A stretch of 64,000 nt of DNA from Urbifossiella limnaea (GTDB lineage Bacteria; Planctomycetota; Planctomycetia; Gemmatales; Gemmataceae): positions 1,658,322-1,722,321 of the forward strand of contig NZ_CP036273.1 in assembly GCF_007747215.1 (NCBI RefSeq), read 5' to 3'. This document shows, in pieces, positions 42,586 to 51,738 of the stretch. Below the pieces are notes generated by a model that was given only the letters and a program-made list of their open reading frames with translations, did not search any database and had not been told where the DNA came from. The position numbers were made by a program, and so were the translations under genes. Position 1 is the stretch's first letter, and the number at the start of each line of letters is the position of its first letter.

Positions 42586-43875
42586 ATGCCGCCCCACGCC
42601 ACACGCCCCCTCCGCCGCGTCCTCGTCGTCGCACTACTGGTGCTCGGCCCGGCCGCCCGCGGCGCGGAACCGGTGCCGGACGCGCTCCGCGCCGAACTGA
42701 AGCTCGCGCCGTTCTACCAGCGCCACGCCGACGCCGGCGGCCTCCCCGTCGTCGGCTCCGCAAAGGTCAGCGACCACGCCCTCGCGGAAGCCGCGTGGGT
42801 CGTCGGCAAGATGCTCGGCGACCGTCCCGACGTGCTCAAGGCCATGCGGGCGAACCGCGTCCGCGTCGCGGTCATGGCGGCGACCGAGTACACGACCGAC
42901 CTGCCCGAGCACGCGAACATGAAGCCGAAGCTGTACTGGGACCGCCGCGCCCGCGGCCTCGGGGCCACGCGGTCGAACCCGGTCGTCAGCTGCGGCGAGG
43001 AGAACCTCCTCGGCCACCAGGGCGACCCGTACCCGGCCGAGAACATCTTCGTCCACGAGTTCGCCCACGCGATCCACGGCACCGGCCTCTCCACGACGGA
43101 CCCGACGTTCGACCGCCGGCTACGGGCGGCGTATCAGGCGGCCCGCGACCGCGGCCTGTGGAAGAACACGTACGCGGCGACGAACGCCGGCGAGTACTGG
43201 GCGGAGGGCGTGCAGTGCTGGTTCGACGACAACGCCCCGCCGGACGCGCTCCACAACGACGTGCGCACCCGCGCCGGGTTGAAGGAGTACGACGCGGGGC
43301 TCGCCGGGCTGTGCCGCGAGGTGTTCGGCGACGGTCCGTGGCGCTACCGCCGCCCCGCCGCCCGCCCGCCCGAGGAACGCGCCCACCTGCCGGGCTACGA
43401 CCGCGCCAAGCTGCCCCGCTTCGAGTGGCGCAAGGTACCCGTCGGCGACGCCGCGAAGGTGACGGTGCAGACCGCGGCCGGCGACTTCGAGCTGGTAGTG
43501 GACGCGAAGGCCGCCCCGGAGGCGGCGCGGCTCTTCCTGGCGGTCGCCGAGGACGGCGGCTACCACAGCGGCCGCCTGCGCGGCGCCGCCGGCGTCGTTC
43601 GTGGCACGGCCGCGGCCGGGTGGCTGACGCGCGGTGCGGCCGAGCGGCTGAAGCTGCCGACGGTGCCGGCTAGCACCGCGCGGCCGGCGGAAGGAACGAT
43701 CGCTCTCGTGCGCGGGGGGGCGGTTGGCGAGTTCGTGCTGTTCCCGGGTACGGTACCGGAGGCAGTCGGCGACGTGGTGCCGTGCGGGCGGATCGGGTCG
43801 GGGGCGGACGTGGTGCGGGCGGTCCTCACCCGCGGCGAGACGATCGACCTACGGCGCGTGATCCGCACGGAGTGA
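42586..43875 (+). CDS. Secreted zinc metallopeptidase fused to cyclophilin-like domain
   Basis: After a signal peptide (residues 1-27) the 429-residue product has a peptidase domain with the zinc motif FVHEFAHAIHG near residue 155 and a downstream Glu in NAGEYWAEGVQCWF near 205 that can be the third ligand, a layout like the lethal-factor-like (ATLF) gluzincins. From about residue 290 it turns into a cyclophilin-type prolyl isomerase fold: VTVQTAAGDFELVVDAKAAP, then EAARLFLAVAEDGGYHSGRL. The usual catalytic Arg and Gln of cyclophilin (FHRV, QGG) are not conserved. The fusion is uncommon in my knowledge. The 3' end overlaps the convergent aldolase gene by 27 bases. Confidence 0.72.
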   Translation: MPPHATRPLRRVLVVALLVLGPAARGAEPVPDALRAELKLAPFYQRHADAGGLPVVGSAKVSDHALAEAAWVVGKMLGDRPDVLKAMRANRVRVAVMAATEYTTDLPEHANMKPKLYWDRRARGLGATRSNPVVSCGEENLLGHQGDPYPAENIFVHEFAHAIHGTGLSTTDPTFDRRLRAAYQAARDRGLWKNTYAATNAGEYWAEGVQCWFDDNAPPDALHNDVRTRAGLKEYDAGLAGLCREVFGDGPWRYRRPAARPPEERAHLPGYDRAKLPRFEWRKVPVGDAAKVTVQTAAGDFELVVDAKAAPEAARLFLAVAEDGGYHSGRLRGAAGVVRGTAAAGWLTRGAAERLKLPTVPASTARPAEGTIALVRGGAVGEFVLFPGTVPEAVGDVVPCGRIGSGADVVRAVLTRGETIDLRRVIRTE

Positions 43876-44769
43876 CGGCACCGGCCGCCGGCCGCGGACG
43901 CCGTACACCCGCGCCCGCTCCCGCACCACCTCGGCCCACCGGCGGTGCGTCGCCGGCTCGCACATCGCCCCGGCCCGCCGGAACACCGCCGGCGCCGCCG
44001 GGTCCAGCACCGCCTCCGCGTCCCGCAACTCCCGCGCGCTCACGCGGTACTCGGCTTCGATGACCGGCACCTGTGCCGGATGCACGGCCGTCTTTCCGAA
44101 CAGGCCGCAGGCGAGATCCCTACGCACCTCGCGGGCCAGGCCGCGCGGGTCGTCCAGGTACTCGAACACGGGGCCGGTCAGGTTCACCCCGTGCGGCCGG
44201 AATGCGGCGGCCAGCTGCGCGATCACCGGGCCGATCGGCGTCTCGTAGATCGTCCCGCGCCGCGGCCGCCGCAGGCCGAGGAGTTGCAGCAGGTCGTTCC
44301 CGCCGACGCGGATCGTGAGCAGCCGGCGGCGATGCGGGTCGGTCAGCAGCACGTCTCGCAACCGGCGCACCTCCGTGGCGTCGAACACGTCCTCGGTCTC
44401 GAGCGTAGGCATGACCCGGTACGCGTCGTCGGCGGCGAACGCGGCGAAGTAGTCGGGCAGGTTGCGGCGCGTGAGTTTCGGCAGGACGAACCCGGCGAGG
44501 CGGCGTGCCCCGGGCATGGCGAGCACAGCCCGGAGCACGGCCGGGTCGCGCGGGCGGACGAAGCAAAGCGGCCCGAACGGCTCCGCGCGGTCGAGCAGCG
44601 CGGCGACGCCGTTCAGGGCCGCGGGCAGGTCGTGCGCGTGAACGGCGTCCTCGGTGCAGACGACGACCGACCGCACGGCCGGGTACTTCCGCCCGCCGGC
44701 GACGGCGGCCAGGTCCGGGCGGGTGGCCGGGACGTACAGCGACGCCCCGAGCGCCAGCGGGATGGTCAT
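43849..44769 (-). CDS. HpcH/HpaI aldolase / citrate-lyase-beta-like protein
   Basis: The 306-residue product is a TIM-barrel lyase of the citrate lyase beta/HpcH type: SLYVPATRPDLAAV at the N-terminus, VCTEDAVHAHDLPAAL, a metal-site region PTLETEDVFDATEV, and GLFGKTAVHPAQVPVIEAEY near the C-terminus. Homologues occur in the metabolite-synthesis module of Ter systems. Its ATG overlaps the StiP stop by 4 bases (ATGA), so it is the last gene of the five-gene operon. The substrate is unknown; an acyl-CoA or nucleoside-linked precursor is possible. Confidence 0.8.
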   Translation of the reverse strand: MTIPLALGASLYVPATRPDLAAVAGGRKYPAVRSVVVCTEDAVHAHDLPAALNGVAALLDRAEPFGPLCFVRPRDPAVLRAVLAMPGARRLAGFVLPKLTRRNLPDYFAAFAADDAYRVMPTLETEDVFDATEVRRLRDVLLTDPHRRRLLTIRVGGNDLLQLLGLRRPRRGTIYETPIGPVIAQLAAAFRPHGVNLTGPVFEYLDDPRGLAREVRRDLACGLFGKTAVHPAQVPVIEAEYRVSARELRDAEAVLDPAAPAVFRRAGAMCEPATHRRWAEVVRERARVYGVRGRRPVPSLRADHAP

Positions 44770-45857
44770 CCGTCGAGCTCCTTGATGAGGGCCGCGGCGG
44801 CGTACGGCAGGCCGGCGTCGACTTCGACCGGCACGCCCTTCTCGCGGGCCAGCACGAGCAGGTGTTCCACGTCGGGCGAGGCCTGGTCGCGGACGAGAAC
44901 GCGGTCCGGGACGCGGCGCAGCAGCACCCGCGTGGCCTCGCCGATCCCGGGTTTTACGTGGTTCTCGTCCCGGACGCCAGTGCGATCCCGCACCGCCGCC
45001 AGGAACGCGGCGCTCCGCTGCCGCAGCCCCGCGGCGTCGATCGGCGCCGGCGGCGTGGGCGTGGTCATCGCGGCGAACACCTCGTCGACGAACGCCCGGG
45101 ACAGGTCGTGCGGGGCGAACTCGCGGAGGAACAGGCAGCCGTGGAAGTCGCCGGGGCCGACCACGTCGGCGTTCAGGATCGACCGGCTGACGAGCCCCGA
45201 CACGGTGGCCCCGAGCACGGCCGACGGGATGAGGTAGTCGTCGGCGGTGGCGGCGACGGCGGCCGCCCCGCACAGGTCGGCGACGGCCCACAGCCCGCCG
45301 TCGAGCCCGGCGCCGGTGCGGGCGTTGAACGCCGCCACAGCTTTCGCCAACTCGCGGGCGATCACGCCCTTGCCGGTCCAGCCGTCGACGAACACGACGG
45401 ACGCGGCGGGGTGCCGTTCCAGGATGAAGCGAAGTGCCACCTCGTCGATGCCGCGGTCGCGGATGATGCTGACGGAGTAGTGCGGCGCGTGGAGGGCGCG
45501 GGCCAGGAGCACGCCGACGGGCGTGCCGGCGCGGGCCAGTGACACCAGAGTGACACCGCCGGGCCGCTCGGCGAGGCGCGCGGCGAGGGTGAGCACGTCG
45601 GCGGCGAAGCGGGCCTTGTTGCGGGCGAGCGCGCGGCGGAACACTTCCAGGTACGCGGCCGACGGCAGCTTCTCGGCCGAAATCATCTCGCTGTAGTGGC
45701 GGGCGCCGGACTGGATGAGCCGCTCCTTCTCGGCCACCGGCGTCGGCGCCAGCCGGACCGGCTTGAGGAGGAACGTCACGTCGGCGGGGTCGTAGCTGCC
45801 GCTGAACGGGTGCGAGGGCGAAGCAACAGACGCAAGTTCCCGAGGCTCTGGCGTCAT
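44766..45857 (-). CDS. StiP family protein (PRTase-like core, C-terminal PELOTA-like domain)
   Basis: The 363-residue product carries the family opening FSGSYDPADVTFLLKPV (about residue 18) and a core with SLARAGTPVGVLLARAL, YSVSIIRDRGIDEVALRF and VVFVDGWTGKGVIARELAKA. Databases name this family 'cysteine protease StiP', but the VDGWTGKG loop resembles the PRPP loop of phosphoribosyltransferases, and I find that role more likely. The last 80 residues (NHVKPGIGEATRVLLRRVPD, then VEHLLVLAREKGVPVEVD) fit a PELOTA-type RNA-binding fold. Both its start and its stop overlap neighbours by 4 bases. Confidence 0.82.
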   Translation of the reverse strand: MTPEPRELASVASPSHPFSGSYDPADVTFLLKPVRLAPTPVAEKERLIQSGARHYSEMISAEKLPSAAYLEVFRRALARNKARFAADVLTLAARLAERPGGVTLVSLARAGTPVGVLLARALHAPHYSVSIIRDRGIDEVALRFILERHPAASVVFVDGWTGKGVIARELAKAVAAFNARTGAGLDGGLWAVADLCGAAAVAATADDYLIPSAVLGATVSGLVSRSILNADVVGPGDFHGCLFLREFAPHDLSRAFVDEVFAAMTTPTPPAPIDAAGLRQRSAAFLAAVRDRTGVRDENHVKPGIGEATRVLLRRVPDRVLVRDQASPDVEHLLVLAREKGVPVEVDAGLPYAAAALIKELDG

Positions 45858-46588
45858 GCCTCGCCCCTCAGCCGGTCCGCGAGTTGACCGACCCGCGGCA
45901 CCGCGGCGAAGTCGCACGCGGTCAGGAACGCCGCGTCGCTGAACCCGTCGCCGACGCCGATCGTCGCCACCGGCTCGTCGGCAAAGTACGTATCCAGGAC
46001 GTGCCGGACCGCCCGCTCCTTCCCCAGGCACGCCGGCACCAGTGACAGGTTGTTGTCGTTGAGGTGGAGTTCGAACCGCCCGTCCGCAGCAGCCCGCAGT
46101 TCGTCACGAACGGGGGCCAGCCGCGTCGCGTCGCCCCCGGGGTGCTTTACCACCAGGTACAGCGGCAGGTCGAAGTCGCGGATCACGCGCGCCGTGAGGC
46201 CGAGGCCGAGCCGGGCCGACGCCGCCTCGGCCGCGCTCCGTGCCGATTCCAGGTCCGCGGCGGTGTCGCGCAGCTGTGGGCGGATCACCGCGTCCCACGC
46301 TTCGTCGAGGGTGCCGCCGGGCGCGAGGACGACGCCGCCGAAGTCGAGGACGGCGGCGTGTGCGAACGGCAGGTCCACGCGGCGGAAGGCGTCCAGGCTG
46401 CGGGCCGTCGTTGGGATCACGGTCCCGCGGTTCAGCAGGTCGAACACGGCACGCTGGCGGTCGGTGATGAACGACAGCGGCGAGCCGTCGCGGGCGCGGG
46501 CCGCCGGCCGCACCGGCTCGCCGGGCGGGCACTTCGGCCGCGTCTGGAACACGGTCCCGTCCAGGTCGAGGAACACGACGACGCGCAC
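45854..46588 (-). CDS. HAD-family phosphatase
   Basis: This 244-residue HAD hydrolase has motif I VFLDLDGTVFQ at residues 5-15 (nucleophile Asp and acid/base Asp), motif II TTARSLD, a Lys in VVKHPGG or CLGKERAV, and motif IV TIGVGDGFSDAAFL. Start is a GTG at 46588 with TGAGGAG upstream. It probably removes a phosphate from an intermediate made by the neighbouring phosphoribosyltransferases. It lies 9 bases after the PRTase stop and overlaps the StiP start by 4 bases. Confidence 0.88.
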   Translation of the reverse strand: MRVVVFLDLDGTVFQTRPKCPPGEPVRPAARARDGSPLSFITDRQRAVFDLLNRGTVIPTTARSLDAFRRVDLPFAHAAVLDFGGVVLAPGGTLDEAWDAVIRPQLRDTAADLESARSAAEAASARLGLGLTARVIRDFDLPLYLVVKHPGGDATRLAPVRDELRAAADGRFELHLNDNNLSLVPACLGKERAVRHVLDTYFADEPVATIGVGDGFSDAAFLTACDFAAVPRVGQLADRLRGEA

Positions 46589-46597
46589 CCGGGCTCC

Positions 46598-47716
46598 TCA
46601 GAAGTACACGGCCGTCGCGCCCAGCATCTCGTGCAGGCGGTGAGCCACCGGCAGCCGGCTCGTCTCGTAGCCGATCAGCACTCGGTCGTAGCGGCGGCCG
46701 GCGACGTTGTAAAGGAAGTTCGGCACGGCGGGGTCGGTATTGTCGGCGAACGTGAGGACGCCGCCGAGCTCGCCGCCGCCGACGAGTGGCGAGCGCGTCG
46801 TGGACTGAAAGGCCACGTCCCAGCCGCGCTCGTCGAGCCGGCGCGCGAGGCGGAACGGCGGGTGCGCGAACTCGCCACTGCCGAGCACGAGCACACGCTC
46901 GCCGGGCGTCACGCCCGCGGCCGCGATCATGGCGTCGAGGTCGTAGGCGAGTGGGCCGCGGACGCCGAGGCGGCCGTGATTCGTGGGCAAAACCGCGTCG
47001 AGGAGTTCGCCGCGGCCGGTCACGTCGGGCGCCGGCTCCGGGTCGAACGCGGGGTCGGGCTCGAACGTGTAGCCGCCGCGCAGCAGGCTGTGGACGGGAA
47101 CGGGAACGCCGAGTTCGGCGGCGAGTCCGGCGCGGCGCGGGCCGAGCCAGTCGGTGAGGCACACGAGGTGAACGCCCGCCAGCCGCGGATTGAGGCGGCG
47201 GTACGCGGCGGCGAGGTTCAGCAGCGTGCGGCCGGTGCTGATCTCGTCGTCCACCAGCACGAGCGACACGGCGCGGCGGAACAGGTCTGCGCAGCCAGGC
47301 TCAGCGGGCTCGTACAGGAGGTGGTCCGGGGCGTGGCTGTGCGGCTCCTCGAAGCCGAAGGCCAGCGGCCGGCTGAGGCGGTACCGCGTGGTGTGGAGGA
47401 ACACGGCGTCCATACGGCCGGTGCGGCGGAGTAGTTCCTCGAACACGCCCTGGCCGAGGCCGGTCGCCGTCTCCGCGAGCGCGACGACGGCCACGGGGCC
47501 CGGCAGGTCGAGCAGCGATTCGGCGAGCCGGGCGTGCGTCTCGGCCATCACGCGCGGGCGGACCGGGACGTGCTTGCCGAGCACCCGGCTGACGAACACG
47601 AACCCGCGCTTGCGGCTGCGCCGGCAGCCGAAACCGCACAGGCGGTCGAGCGGCAGTGTCGCCGCTTCGACGTCGAGGCGGAGGGTTCCGCACGGCAGCC
47701 GCACGGTGTGCGTCAT
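46598..47716 (-). CDS. Phosphoribosyltransferase with TRSP domain
   Basis: The 372-residue product has a type-I PRTase domain: the PRPP loop is LVLVDDEISTGRTLLNLAAA near residue 165, and an earlier VAVVALAETATGLGQGVFEE near 92 is a second family motif. After about 240 a separate alpha/beta domain (ERVLVLGSGEFAHPPFRLAR, then VAFQSTTRSPL and NFLYNV) matches the TRSP domain known from Ter-associated PRTases. It should join a base to ribose phosphate, or split it off. Its ATG overlaps the ATP-grasp stop by 4 bases. Confidence 0.85.
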   Translation of the reverse strand: MTHTVRLPCGTLRLDVEAATLPLDRLCGFGCRRSRKRGFVFVSRVLGKHVPVRPRVMAETHARLAESLLDLPGPVAVVALAETATGLGQGVFEELLRRTGRMDAVFLHTTRYRLSRPLAFGFEEPHSHAPDHLLYEPAEPGCADLFRRAVSLVLVDDEISTGRTLLNLAAAYRRLNPRLAGVHLVCLTDWLGPRRAGLAAELGVPVPVHSLLRGGYTFEPDPAFDPEPAPDVTGRGELLDAVLPTNHGRLGVRGPLAYDLDAMIAAAGVTPGERVLVLGSGEFAHPPFRLARRLDERGWDVAFQSTTRSPLVGGGELGGVLTFADNTDPAVPNFLYNVAGRRYDRVLIGYETSRLPVAHRLHEMLGATAVYF

Positions 47717-48702
47717 GTCGAGCGCGCCGGCACGGGTTGGGGCACGCGAACGCCGGTGCGCGGGGCCGGCAAATCGGCGGCGGTCCCGGTGCCGAGCGCG
47801 AGCCGGACCGCCCACAGCGGCAGGTTCAGCCCGCTGCGGAACGTCATCGGCAGGCCGCCGGACATCCGCGGGTTGATCTCCAGCAGGTGCGGCTCGCCGG
47901 CCGCGTCGCGGAACTGGGTGTTGAACAGCCCCGTCAGCCGCAGCCGCGCCGCCAGCCGCCGCACCACCTCGACCAGCCGCGGGTTGTCCTCGATCAGCTG
48001 CCACCCGTGCCCCTTGCGGCGGACGACGGCGCCGACCAACTCGCCGTTCTCGGCGAGCGCGTCCACGCTCCGCTCCGGGCCGGGCAGATACTCCATCACC
48101 AGCAGGTCGGCGAAGCGGCCGGCTCCGAGGCGGGTGCGGGCGTCTGCCAGTGCAATCCCGTTCGGGTGGTTGAAGTCGTCGAGGACGTGGAAGCCGATGC
48201 CGTACACGCCCGTGGCCGGCTTGTAGCACACCCGCGTGTGCCGGCCGCGGAGGCGCTCCACGGCGGCGTCGAAGGCGGTGCGGTCGGTCACCACCTCGCA
48301 CGTCGGCAGCCGCACACCCGGCACGTCGGCCACGGCCGCGGCCAGCTTCGCCTTGTGGTTCACCAGCCGGATCGTCGCCGCGTCGCCGGCCGCGCACACG
48401 CGCGTGCCGACCGCCGCGAACCGGTCGCGCGCCGCCACCACGGGCAACACGTTCCGCCCCGGGAAGAACAGCGCCACGCCGTGCCGTTCCGCGAACCCCA
48501 GGCAGTAATCGACGTACCGGTCGGCCGCGAGGCCGTCGGGCTCGAGTTCGAAGTGATCGGCGTGGCAGCGACCGCGGTAGCGCGGGCTCGGGTGGGTGAC
48601 GAGGACGCGGAACTCGCCCGGCCGGCGGTCGCGGCGGAGGCGGGCGACGACTTCGCCGGTGTTGGCGAGGTACTTGTTGAACCAGACGGCGGGCGCGGGC
48701 AT
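47713..48702 (-). CDS. ATP-grasp ligase
   Basis: This 329-residue product is the first gene of the operon. The ATP-grasp signatures are NHKAKLAAAVADV (lid), RVCYKPATGVYGIGFHV (ATP-binding Lys and loop), LLVMEYLPGPERSVDALAEN (metal side) and LLEINPRMSGGLPM (C-terminal metal ligands). The N-terminal 100 residues are a pre-ATP-grasp Rossmann-like fold. The enzyme should form an amide or ester bond on a nucleoside-like scaffold. It is divergent from modA with a 61-base spacer that must carry the operon promoter. Confidence 0.85.
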   Translation of the reverse strand: MPAPAVWFNKYLANTGEVVARLRRDRRPGEFRVLVTHPSPRYRGRCHADHFELEPDGLAADRYVDYCLGFAERHGVALFFPGRNVLPVVAARDRFAAVGTRVCAAGDAATIRLVNHKAKLAAAVADVPGVRLPTCEVVTDRTAFDAAVERLRGRHTRVCYKPATGVYGIGFHVLDDFNHPNGIALADARTRLGAGRFADLLVMEYLPGPERSVDALAENGELVGAVVRRKGHGWQLIEDNPRLVEVVRRLAARLRLTGLFNTQFRDAAGEPHLLEINPRMSGGLPMTFRSGLNLPLWAVRLALGTGTAADLPAPRTGVRVPQPVPARST

Positions 48703-48763
48703 GGCGGGATGCTACCGTCGCGCCCCGGCGCGTCAACCGGAACCGGCCCGTATGCTGTCCGGG

Positions 48764-49540
48764 ATGTCGCGCACCACCGCCGCCGCCGTCGGATCACTCG
48801 TGCTGCTCGGGCTCCTCGCCGCAGCGCTGGGGTGGCGCGGCCGCGACGCCGGCGGGGCGCGGCCCCTTGTCGTATACGCCGCGGCGGCGGTGCGGGTGCC
48901 GCTCGAGGTCGCCGCCCGCGACTACGAGGCCGCACACGGCCGCCACGTCGCGCTGCGGTTCGGCGCGTCCGAGGACATCCTCACGCGGGCTGGCCTGGTC
49001 AACCCGTCGGACCCCGCCGACGTGTTCCTCCCCGCCGACGACTCGTACGTCCGCACGGCTCGCGACCGCGGGCTTGTTGCGGACGGCTTCCCGCTCGCCA
49101 CCATGCGCGCGGTCGTGCTGCTGGCGCCGGGTAACCCGAAGGGGCTCGCCGGTTGGGCCGACCTCCAGCGCGACGGCGCGCGGGTGGCGGTGCCGAACCG
49201 CGCCGCGGCCGTCGGCAAGCTCACCCGCGACCACCTGACCGCCGCCGGCCGGTGGGAGACGCTGAAGCCGCGCGTGGCCGACACCGGCACCGTGACCGAG
49301 GCGGCGAACGCGGCGAAGGTCGGGGCCGCGGACGCGGCCGTGGTGTGGGACGCGGTCGCCGTGAACTACCCCGGGCAGGCCGTGCTGACGCCGCCGGAAC
49401 TGGCCGGCGTCGTGGGCCGCGTCGAGGTGGCGGTGCTGACGCAGTCGGCCGACCGCGACGCGGCGCTGGGCTTCGCCCGCTACCTCGCCGACCCGGAGCG
49501 CGGGCTGAAGACGTTCCGCACAGCGGGGTTCACGCCATGA
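48764..49540 (+). CDS. modA: Molybdate ABC transporter substrate-binding protein
   Basis: The 258-residue product is a periplasmic binding protein: signal anchor TAAAVGSLVLLGLLAAALGW, then PLVVYAAAAVRVPLEVAARD, VALRFGASEDILTRAG, PADVFLPADDSY and ADAAVVWDAVAV. These are ModA-like contacts for a tetrahedral oxyanion, although the usual AASL start is AAAAV and the specificity could be for another oxyanion. The ATG at 48764 is preferred, with one at 48752 possible. Its stop overlaps the modB start (ATGA). Confidence 0.8.
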   Translation: MSRTTAAAVGSLVLLGLLAAALGWRGRDAGGARPLVVYAAAAVRVPLEVAARDYEAAHGRHVALRFGASEDILTRAGLVNPSDPADVFLPADDSYVRTARDRGLVADGFPLATMRAVVLLAPGNPKGLAGWADLQRDGARVAVPNRAAAVGKLTRDHLTAAGRWETLKPRVADTGTVTEAANAAKVGAADAAVVWDAVAVNYPGQAVLTPPELAGVVGRVEVAVLTQSADRDAALGFARYLADPERGLKTFRTAGFTP

Positions 49541-50331
49541 CCACCGGCCGCGCCTCGGCGGTGCCGTTCTACGCCGCGCTCGGGCTCCTCGGCGGGCTGT
49601 ACGTCGGCCTCGTCGTCGCCATGCTCGTCGCCGACCTGGCGTACACGTCGCCGGCGCACGTCGGCCGCGCGCTGGCGTCGCCCGACATCCGCGCCGCGGT
49701 GTGGCTCACGCTCATCAGTTGCTCCGCGTCGGCGGTGCTGGCGGTGTGGGTCGGCGTGCCGCTCGGCTACCTGCTGGCGCGGACGCGCTTCCCGGGGAAG
49801 GCCGCCGTCGATCTGCTGGTGGACGTGCCGATCGCCCTGCCGCCGCTCGTCGTCGGGCTCAGCCTCCTCATCTTGTTCCAGACGCCGCCGGGCCTCGCGG
49901 TCCAGCGACACCTCACGGTCACCTACGCGGTGCCTGCGGTGGTGTTGGCGCAGTTCGTCGTCGCGGCGGCGTTCGCGGCGCGGACCATGCGGGTGACGTT
50001 CGAGCAACTCTCGCCCCGAACCGAGGACGTGGCGATGACGCTCGGCTGCTCGCGCGGCCGGGCGTTCTGGCTCGTCACACTGCCGGAGGCGCGGCGCGGC
50101 GTGCTGGCGGCGGGGACGCTGGCGTGGGCGCGGTCGCTCGGCGAGTTCGGGCCGGTGCTGGTGTTCGCCGGGGCGACGCGCGGGCGGACGGAGGTGCTGG
50201 CGACGACGGTGTACCTGGAGCTGAGCGTCGGCAACCTGGAGGCGGCGCTGGCCGTGTCGGTGCTGATGATCGGCGTCGCGGTGGCGGTGCTGGTGCTGAC
50301 CCGGGCGCTCGGCCTCCGCGGCGCGGGCTAG
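49537..50331 (+). CDS. modB: Molybdate-type ABC transporter permease
   Basis: The 264-residue membrane protein has about six spans and the ABC coupling loop RTEDVAMTLGCSRGRAFWLV, then LPEARRGVLAAGTLAWARSL (the EAA motif region), close to ModB/CysT permeases. Overlaps modA by 4 bases at its start, and its stop overlaps the stop of the convergent patatin gene by 4 bases. No modC ATPase follows, so the ATPase must be encoded elsewhere. Confidence 0.88.
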   Translation: MTTGRASAVPFYAALGLLGGLYVGLVVAMLVADLAYTSPAHVGRALASPDIRAAVWLTLISCSASAVLAVWVGVPLGYLLARTRFPGKAAVDLLVDVPIALPPLVVGLSLLILFQTPPGLAVQRHLTVTYAVPAVVLAQFVVAAAFAARTMRVTFEQLSPRTEDVAMTLGCSRGRAFWLVTLPEARRGVLAAGTLAWARSLGEFGPVLVFAGATRGRTEVLATTVYLELSVGNLEAALAVSVLMIGVAVAVLVLTRALGLRGAG

Positions 50332-51560
50332 CGGGCGCCGGGGGCGAGGAACTGGGTGCCGGTGCGCGGCCGCGTCTGCTCGTGCGGCTCGGCTCCCGGC
50401 GGCGTGTCGCGCCAGGCCCGGCCGCCGGCGGCCGCCTCGTACCCGGCGGCGTACAGCCGGCGCATCGCCGCCGGGTCGAAGCTCATCGCGTCGCCCCCGG
50501 CGTCGAAGTTCTCAGGGACCGCCGCCAGGTGGTACCGCATCCCGCCGAGGAGGCAGAGCGAATAGATGCGGTACAACTCGCCCCGCGTCTGCGACGCGAC
50601 CACCGACTCCAGCGAGCCCGCGGCGATCCGGACGGCTCGCTGGTCGGTACACGCCGGGTCGGCGTAGAGCTTCCCGGCGATAACGACGTACGCGTCCGAC
50701 CCGGCGAGCGGTTGCCGGCCGGCCCGCAGCGCCTCGCGGTCTAGGTGGAGGGTGCTCGCGCGGAGGAACACGCCGGTCGTCGCCCCGCCGTCCACGTGGA
50801 GTTCGGTGAACCGCCGGCCGTTCACTTCCACCTCGACCGGCACCGGCGGGAAGAAGCCCGGGACCGACGCTGACGCCAGCAGGACGGTGCGGTAGAGGTC
50901 CGCCGCGTCCGGCCGGCCGCTCGACGCGATCGCCCCCATGTCCCAGACCACGAGCCGGCGGGCGTCGAGGTTCGTGGTGCCGACGTACAACCGCCGCCCG
51001 GCCGCGTGGGCCCGCGCCACCTCCGCGAGGAGGGCGTCGTCCACCTGCGCCGCGATCAGCTTTTTCAGCGGCTCGGACGACGCGGCCGAGTCCGAGAACA
51101 GCACCGCGACGCGCGGCCGGCGGCGGTAGATGTCCTTGTCGGAGACCGTGGTGTAGAGCCGGGTCATCGGCTCGTCGTAGGCGGTGCCGAGGAAGGCGTA
51201 GCTGGCGACGAGGGCGCCCGTGCTGACGCCGGTGACCACGTCGAACGTCGGCCGGGTGCCGGTGTCGGTCCACCCCTTGAGGACGCCGACCGAGTAGGCT
51301 CCGTACATCCCGCCGCCGGACAGGGCGAGGAACTTCCCCGGCTTCGCGGCCGGGTCGGGGGCGGAGTTTGCGGCCCGGGTGCGGTCCACGAGCGAGCGGA
51401 GGAGTTCCGTCTCGACCACGGCCGACTCGTCGGCCGGGCCGGGTTGCACGAGGCCGCTCTCGCGGGTGAGTTCGGGCGGGGCGCACGCCCGGTGCCGCGT
51501 CGCGCAGCCCGCCGCGGCGAGGACGAGCCCGACGGCGGCGACACGGGTGAGCGGGGACAC
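50328..51560 (-). CDS. Patatin-like phospholipase, lipoprotein
   Basis: The 410-residue product starts at a GTG at 51560 (an alternative start lies at 51599), which gives a lipoprotein signal with lipobox AAAGC near residue 20. The patatin catalytic dyad is present: oxyanion loop SGGGMYGAYSVGVL near 80, nucleophile GVSTGALVAS near 115 and DGGATTG near 257. It should hydrolyse acyl lipids at the envelope. Length is normal for bacterial patatins. It is convergent with modB. Confidence 0.88.
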   Translation of the reverse strand: MSPLTRVAAVGLVLAAAGCATRHRACAPPELTRESGLVQPGPADESAVVETELLRSLVDRTRAANSAPDPAAKPGKFLALSGGGMYGAYSVGVLKGWTDTGTRPTFDVVTGVSTGALVASYAFLGTAYDEPMTRLYTTVSDKDIYRRRPRVAVLFSDSAASSEPLKKLIAAQVDDALLAEVARAHAAGRRLYVGTTNLDARRLVVWDMGAIASSGRPDAADLYRTVLLASASVPGFFPPVPVEVEVNGRRFTELHVDGGATTGVFLRASTLHLDREALRAGRQPLAGSDAYVVIAGKLYADPACTDQRAVRIAAGSLESVVASQTRGELYRIYSLCLLGGMRYHLAAVPENFDAGGDAMSFDPAAMRRLYAAGYEAAAGGRAWRDTPPGAEPHEQTRPRTGTQFLAPGAR

Positions 51561-51738
51561 CAAGCTCTCGCGTTCGAGCGGCCCGGGTTCGGGTCGCACC
51601 CCACTGTAGGGCGCCTGGAGTGACCGGTTGAACGAATCCTGTCCGGTGGCGTGTATCCGCGCTGCCGTTCGGGCAGATTATGCCGGTCGCGCGGGCAGGG
51701 GTGGCCGCTCGGCGTTGAGATGTGCGGGTGAAACGCAG

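Follow-up and report, generated by a model that had tools for sequence, protein, structure and literature searches.

The genome of Urbifossiella limnaea carries an operon of five enzyme genes that is a biosynthetic module of the Ter type and not a Ter system. We consider it probable that this small-molecule module is complete and functional, that it has long been working without TerD, and that it makes a ribosylated product. The Ter-associated biosynthetic module was described by Anantharaman, Iyer and Aravind in 2012 (Mol Biosyst 8:3142, via PMC8115787 and PMC7824862), and its nucleoside-like metabolite is a prediction of the literature. An earlier note on this DNA had interpreted the five genes as a Ter-type metabolite operon that forms a stand-alone pathway and may be linked to an oxyanion or metal; the first two parts of that interpretation are borne out here, but the link is not.

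The operon and its enzymes

In the window, by which we mean the whole stretch of 64,000 nucleotides that was analysed, five minus-strand genes (43849-48702) represent the five Ter-operon enzyme families ATPgrasp_Ter, PRTase_2-TRSP, HAD phosphatase, StiP-PELOTA and C-C_Bond_Lyase. The features are as follows.

47713..48702, minus strand: gene 1, ATP-grasp ligase (ATPgrasp_Ter), 329 aa; Pfam PF15632, 9e-42, 142 bits
46598..47716, minus strand: gene 2, PRTase_2-TRSP, 372 aa; Pfam PF15609, 3e-61 (207 bits), and PF12500, 2e-18 (67 bits)
45854..46588, minus strand: gene 3, HAD phosphatase, 244 aa, GTG start; matches 6CJ0/6D3V, no Pfam family
44766..45857, minus strand: gene 4, StiP-PELOTA, 363 aa; Pfam PF11202, 4e-97 (StiP, 325 bits), and PF15608, 2e-31 (PELOTA_1, 108 bits)
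43849..44769, minus strand: gene 5, C-C bond lyase, 306 aa; Pfam PF15617, 5e-88, 296 bits
48703..48763, no strand: divergent gap between the operon and modA, about 50-60 bases, read from the sequence

The strand, order and junctions of these genes, as first described, were all reconfirmed from the sequence: genes 1/2, 3/4 and 4/5 overlap by ATGA, and genes 2/3 are separated by 9 bases from stop to start. The family names are likewise backed, by Pfam for four of the five genes with large scores far over the cut-off and by the PDB 6CJ0 match for the HAD, and chance matching is ruled out at the Pfam scores obtained. The gap at 48703..48763 is the sole non-coding site before gene 1 for an operon promoter. 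At the opposite edge, the lyase gene shares its final 27 bases (43849-43875) with the end of a plus-strand gene that runs towards it (42586-43875) and for which no Pfam family was found. Defence-system models gave no match.

The ATP-grasp enzyme is CPSase/L-amino-acid-ligase-like, and its closest solved relative is 2PN1 (profile E 4e-20). Gene 2 encodes a type I phosphoribosyltransferase whose canonical PRPP loop, VLVDDEISTGRT, contains the usual DD pair and whose AF2 model (pLDDT 94) matches APRT with Z 12.6 over 174 residues. The HAD encoded by gene 3 carries motif I as DLDGT and motif IV as GDGFSD, and the residues D8, D10, T61, K190, D214 and D218 are all kept. The lyase is a CitE/HpcH-HpaI TIM barrel with citrate-lyase-like solved relatives (best 3QLL, 2e-16).

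StiP (44766-45857) looks like a PRPP-binding phosphoribosyltransferase in its predicted structure and sequence. The AF2 model (pLDDT 94) matches XGPRT/HGPRT phosphoribosyltransferases, with a Foldseek probability of 1.00 to XGPRT, and the loop FVDGWTGKG is nearly invariant in 88 copies. Both defining features of a type I PRTase, a (predicted) PRTase fold and the PRPP loop, are found in the StiP domain. The Pfam name of PF11202, which designates StiP as a cysteine protease, was rejected: at C241, the best cysteine column, Cys stands in 81% and Ala in 18% of the 88 copies, and the PRTase-like fold does not support the name either.

In the pathway that we infer from these enzymes, from its acceptor and order of steps to its product and the TerD-independent action of that product, and for which the folds are predicted ones, the lyase and the ATP-grasp enzyme would prepare an acceptor by C-C bond chemistry followed by ATP-driven ligation. 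PRTase_2-TRSP (APRT-like) and StiP-PELOTA (XGPRT/CriT-like), both PRPP-dependent, would then add ribose-5-phosphate, and the HAD, which is translationally coupled to StiP, would take off the phosphate. The most likely product is a ribosylated, nucleoside-like small molecule made without a TerD sensor.

Absence of TerD and distribution of the operon

The window genome is a single contig of 7.8 Mb and is 97% complete, and genome-wide searches were made for TerD, TelA and TerC. Neither an HMM nor a TerD protein query matched TerD (PF02342) anywhere in this contig, and TelA gave no match in it. The only clear TerC homologue is encoded some 238 kb away and is thus not linked to the operon, and one more match falls below the cut-off; this homologue is not specific, since TerC is also present in 9 of 14 control genomes. 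A phmmer search with a TerY query found no match next to the operon. The earlier observation that the window holds no Ter gene is correct, and for TerD and TelA it extends to the whole genome. TerD-family genes just outside the operon, which the earlier note had named as counting against its interpretation, were found neither there nor elsewhere in the genome.

Of 95 Gemmataceae genomes, 9 carry StiP and 2 carry TerD; none carries both. The absence of TerD from all nine StiP-bearing genomes supports a stand-alone pathway, and it is less certain in eight of them because these are draft assemblies (75-95% complete). StiP is carried by two of the six genomes of the genus, and in a sample of 392 genomes of the phylum a full-length StiP was found in the window genome only, with partial StiP-like proteins over the cut-off in two others. 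Partial StiP-like proteins of other Planctomycetota (L013 and L014, in genomes G427 and G215) also give weak uracil phosphoribosyltransferase scores, and L013 has a PRTase-TRSP-like neighbour gene.

The order of the genes across Gemmataceae, proposed earlier as a check, is the same wherever the contigs allow: the ATP-grasp gene leads in all nine loci, and PRTase-TRSP, HAD, StiP and lyase follow in this order in eight, the ninth contig stopping at StiP. The flanks differ in every genome. An all-against-all comparison of the Gemmataceae flanks yielded one unrelated pair and, apart from it, nothing but antisense shadows of the operon's own five genes. A replacement partner was also sought in the flanks and rejected, as none recurs; one GTPase-like gene region occurs in two loci only, several kb away.

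A StiP scan of the genome collection gave 80 loci, 1 from Gemmataceae and 79 from outside. TerD lies within the fetched DNA of 62 outside loci, and when the other 17 genomes were searched whole it was found elsewhere in 13 and was absent from 4. Thus, TerD is present in the locus or genome of 75 of 79 outside relatives versus 0 of 9 Gemmataceae (Fisher p 1e-9, which overstates the difference because the rows are related and not independent). The four exceptions are Bradyrhizobium iriomotense (L063), Mesorhizobium amorphae (L092) and two metagenome bins. The two named species resemble Gemmataceae in having PRTase_2-TRSP, HAD and StiP in a genome without TerD, but differ in that their fetched DNA gave no match to the ATP-grasp enzyme or the lyase. 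StiP also occurs on plasmids of Bradyrhizobium elkanii nodule strains. Of the groups sampled, only Gemmataceae hold all five genes of the cassette in genomes that are well assembled and lack TerD.

All five enzyme families are common to the Ter-associated module and the window operon, and the Gemmataceae gene order (ATP-grasp, PRTase-TRSP, HAD, StiP, lyase) is the commonest proteobacterial one; in contrast to that module, the operon has no Ter gene near it in the window genome or in eight other Gemmataceae, and TerD is missing from these nine genomes altogether. The Ter operon of the Pseudomonas aeruginosa plasmids CP109686.1 and Rms139 contains homologous ATP-grasp, PRTase, HAD, StiP and lyase genes in the same order (34, 41, 33, 46 and 46% identity, respectively), but on the plasmids an additional HAD-IB, TerD/TerZ, TerB, TerC and TerE come after the module.

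With TerD missing, the product must have another mode of action or an unrecognised receptor. It could still serve Ter-like stress signalling if an unrecognised or distant protein, such as the TerC 238 kb away or a TerB/vWA protein, has replaced TerD. According to a proposal of the Aravind group (PMC7824862), TerB/TerD proteins sense a signal that the enzymes of Ter systems produce, and the window genome does contain a TerC-family gene. However, TerC is common without Ter systems, as in the control genomes above, a TerC match is absent from four of the StiP-bearing Gemmataceae genomes, and no neighbour is common to the loci. We regard such a replacement as rather unlikely.

Structural likeness of StiP to CriT

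The best VIA-align match of StiP is the CriT domain of the Hib capsule polymerase Bcs3 (8A0C; Z 11.3, 190 residues, 10% identity), and the next-best structural match is 5BQP/XGPRT (Z 10.1 over 127-128 residues). A comparison of StiP with CriT by sequence profile gave no match, so the likeness is structural only. The loop FVDGWTGKG appears, like that of CriT, to carry a single acid in place of the two of usual PRTases. CriT is a PRPP-dependent ribofuranosyltransferase, and a neighbouring HAD dephosphorylates its product (PMC10299916). The CriT-CrpP pair of Bcs3 combines a PRTase-fold transferase that uses PRPP with a HAD that removes the 5-phosphate, much as is proposed here for StiP and its HAD; it differs in showing no detectable sequence similarity to StiP, in the subgroup of its HAD, and in making a polymer and not a small molecule, whereas the C-terminal L7Ae/PELOTA (L7Ae-like) domain is a feature of StiP.

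It is possible, although unlikely, that StiP and its coupled HAD form a PRPP-dependent O-ribosylation and dephosphorylation pair that serves a Ter-unrelated purpose in Gemmataceae. The product would then be an O-ribofuranoside and not a true nucleoside, or it would be ribosylated RNA; the latter is considered because the C-terminal domain of StiP, in which E307 and R310 are invariant, is of the L7Ae-like RNA-binding kind. A nucleoside-like small molecule remains our preferred product.

Conservation of the enzymes

Conserved columns were defined as those at least 95% conserved in relatives outside Gemmataceae, of which there are 172. The window proteins keep all 172, including 27 of 27 in the ATP-grasp enzyme, 36 of 36 in PRTase_2-TRSP (PRPP loop included) and 58 of 58 in StiP-PELOTA, and 153 of the 172 are kept by every Gemmataceae copy. 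The kept residues include the PRPP loop of PRTase_2, the HAD and ATP-grasp residues, and the invariant R72, E124 and D159 of the lyase. As judged from sequence, the catalytic residues appear intact in all five window enzymes, among them those of the PRTase, whose inactivity the earlier note had named as counting against its interpretation. The module looks active, since all of the residues conserved in outside relatives are kept.

The operon proteins share about 40-65% identity between Gemmataceae genera. A tree of 67 rows placed eight of the nine Gemmataceae copies in one starred clade with G058 outside, and a smaller, more careful tree clustered all nine with G058 inside. G058 (L104) has long branches in both the operon proteins and rpoB, so this lineage is either fast-evolving or deep. 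The grouping of G000 with G089 is the only one on which the rpoB and operon trees firmly agree. Because the diverged copies keep their active sites, selection has presumably acted on them in TerD-free genomes, and intact active sites after such long divergence argue for a function without TerD.

An alternative is a decaying Ter operon that has lost its Ter genes and has no present function. The patchiness of the cassette (9 of 95 genomes in the family, 2 of 6 in the genus) and the different flanks in every genome are what such a remnant might leave behind, but frameshifts are absent, translational coupling is intact, every conserved active-site residue is kept, and the five genes stay together across diverged TerD-free lineages. 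We consider decay improbable and a working module the better account.

The HAD and the trehalose phosphatase entries

The HAD of gene 3 matches PDB 6CJ0/6D3V, deposited as trehalose phosphatase, by profile (3e-81) and by phmmer (5e-28), and 6D3W is a further deposited entry of this name among its matches; gene 3 shares only 33% identity with the Pseudomonas enzyme (6CJ0). The sequence of 6CJ0 is 99.6% identical to a protein on the P. aeruginosa plasmid CP109686.1, where PRTase and StiP flank it within a full Ter operon that also includes TerD, TerB and TerC, an arrangement identical to that of plasmid Rms139. The crystallised trehalose phosphatase is the HAD of this plasmid Ter operon (L108:8989-9747, CP109686.1). 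Cross et al. (2018, FASEB J 32:5470) are said to have found Mg-dependent, specific hydrolysis of T6P by P. aeruginosa TPP. The only cysteines of 6CJ0 are at positions 85 and 231, the exact pair named for the P. aeruginosa extra-chromosomal TPP, which was assayed as TPP (PMC6838324). With a 6CJ0-family HAD inside a Ter operon and this assay, a Ter-operon HAD already has both a structure and an assay. A limited literature search found no paper that joins 6CJ0 to the Ter operon.

T6P is probably not the natural substrate of the HAD, since a T6P-synthase-type gene is found in only 4 of the 9 Gemmataceae carriers. The name of the 6CJ0 family, the TPP assay and the GT20 (OtsA-type) gene of the window genome could suggest a true trehalose-6-phosphate phosphatase in an operon for trehalose or another disaccharide. 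This is quite improbable: GT20 genes occur in only those four carriers, several of the nine carrier genomes being incomplete, and never inside the operon; apart from the 6CJ0 family, the HAD profile comes closest to MPGP/SPP-type HADs, with canonical OtsB absent among its matches; and none of the other four operon enzymes is known to act in trehalose synthesis.

The facing modAB pair

As described earlier, the operon faces a modAB pair, in which modA scores over the cut-off of NCBIfam modA and the ModB-like permease stays below its own cut-offs. The pair (window 48752-50331) has no adjoining modC ATPase, and a patatin-like gene on the minus strand (50328-51599) overlaps modB by four bases. A link to molybdate, another oxyanion or a metal through this pair is very improbable, for although the gap of only about 50-60 bases would permit shared regulation, modC does not adjoin it, and the same queries found modA/modB beside the operon in no other Gemmataceae locus, not even in the congener (proteins 78-84% identical), and in 0 of 79 outside loci. 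No neighbour outside the five genes recurs across the Gemmataceae loci.

Implications

The metabolite of Ter operons has been a prediction since 2012, and the Ter proteins complicate every genetic test of it. A complete copy of the five genes in genomes without TerD sets the biosynthetic half apart, and because the TerD gene is absent, the small molecule can be studied apart from the Ter system. The structure and T6P-phosphatase assay of a Ter-operon HAD, together with the evidence from predicted structure that StiP may be a PRPP transferase, provide biochemical starting points. Expression of the five genes alone should yield the metabolite.
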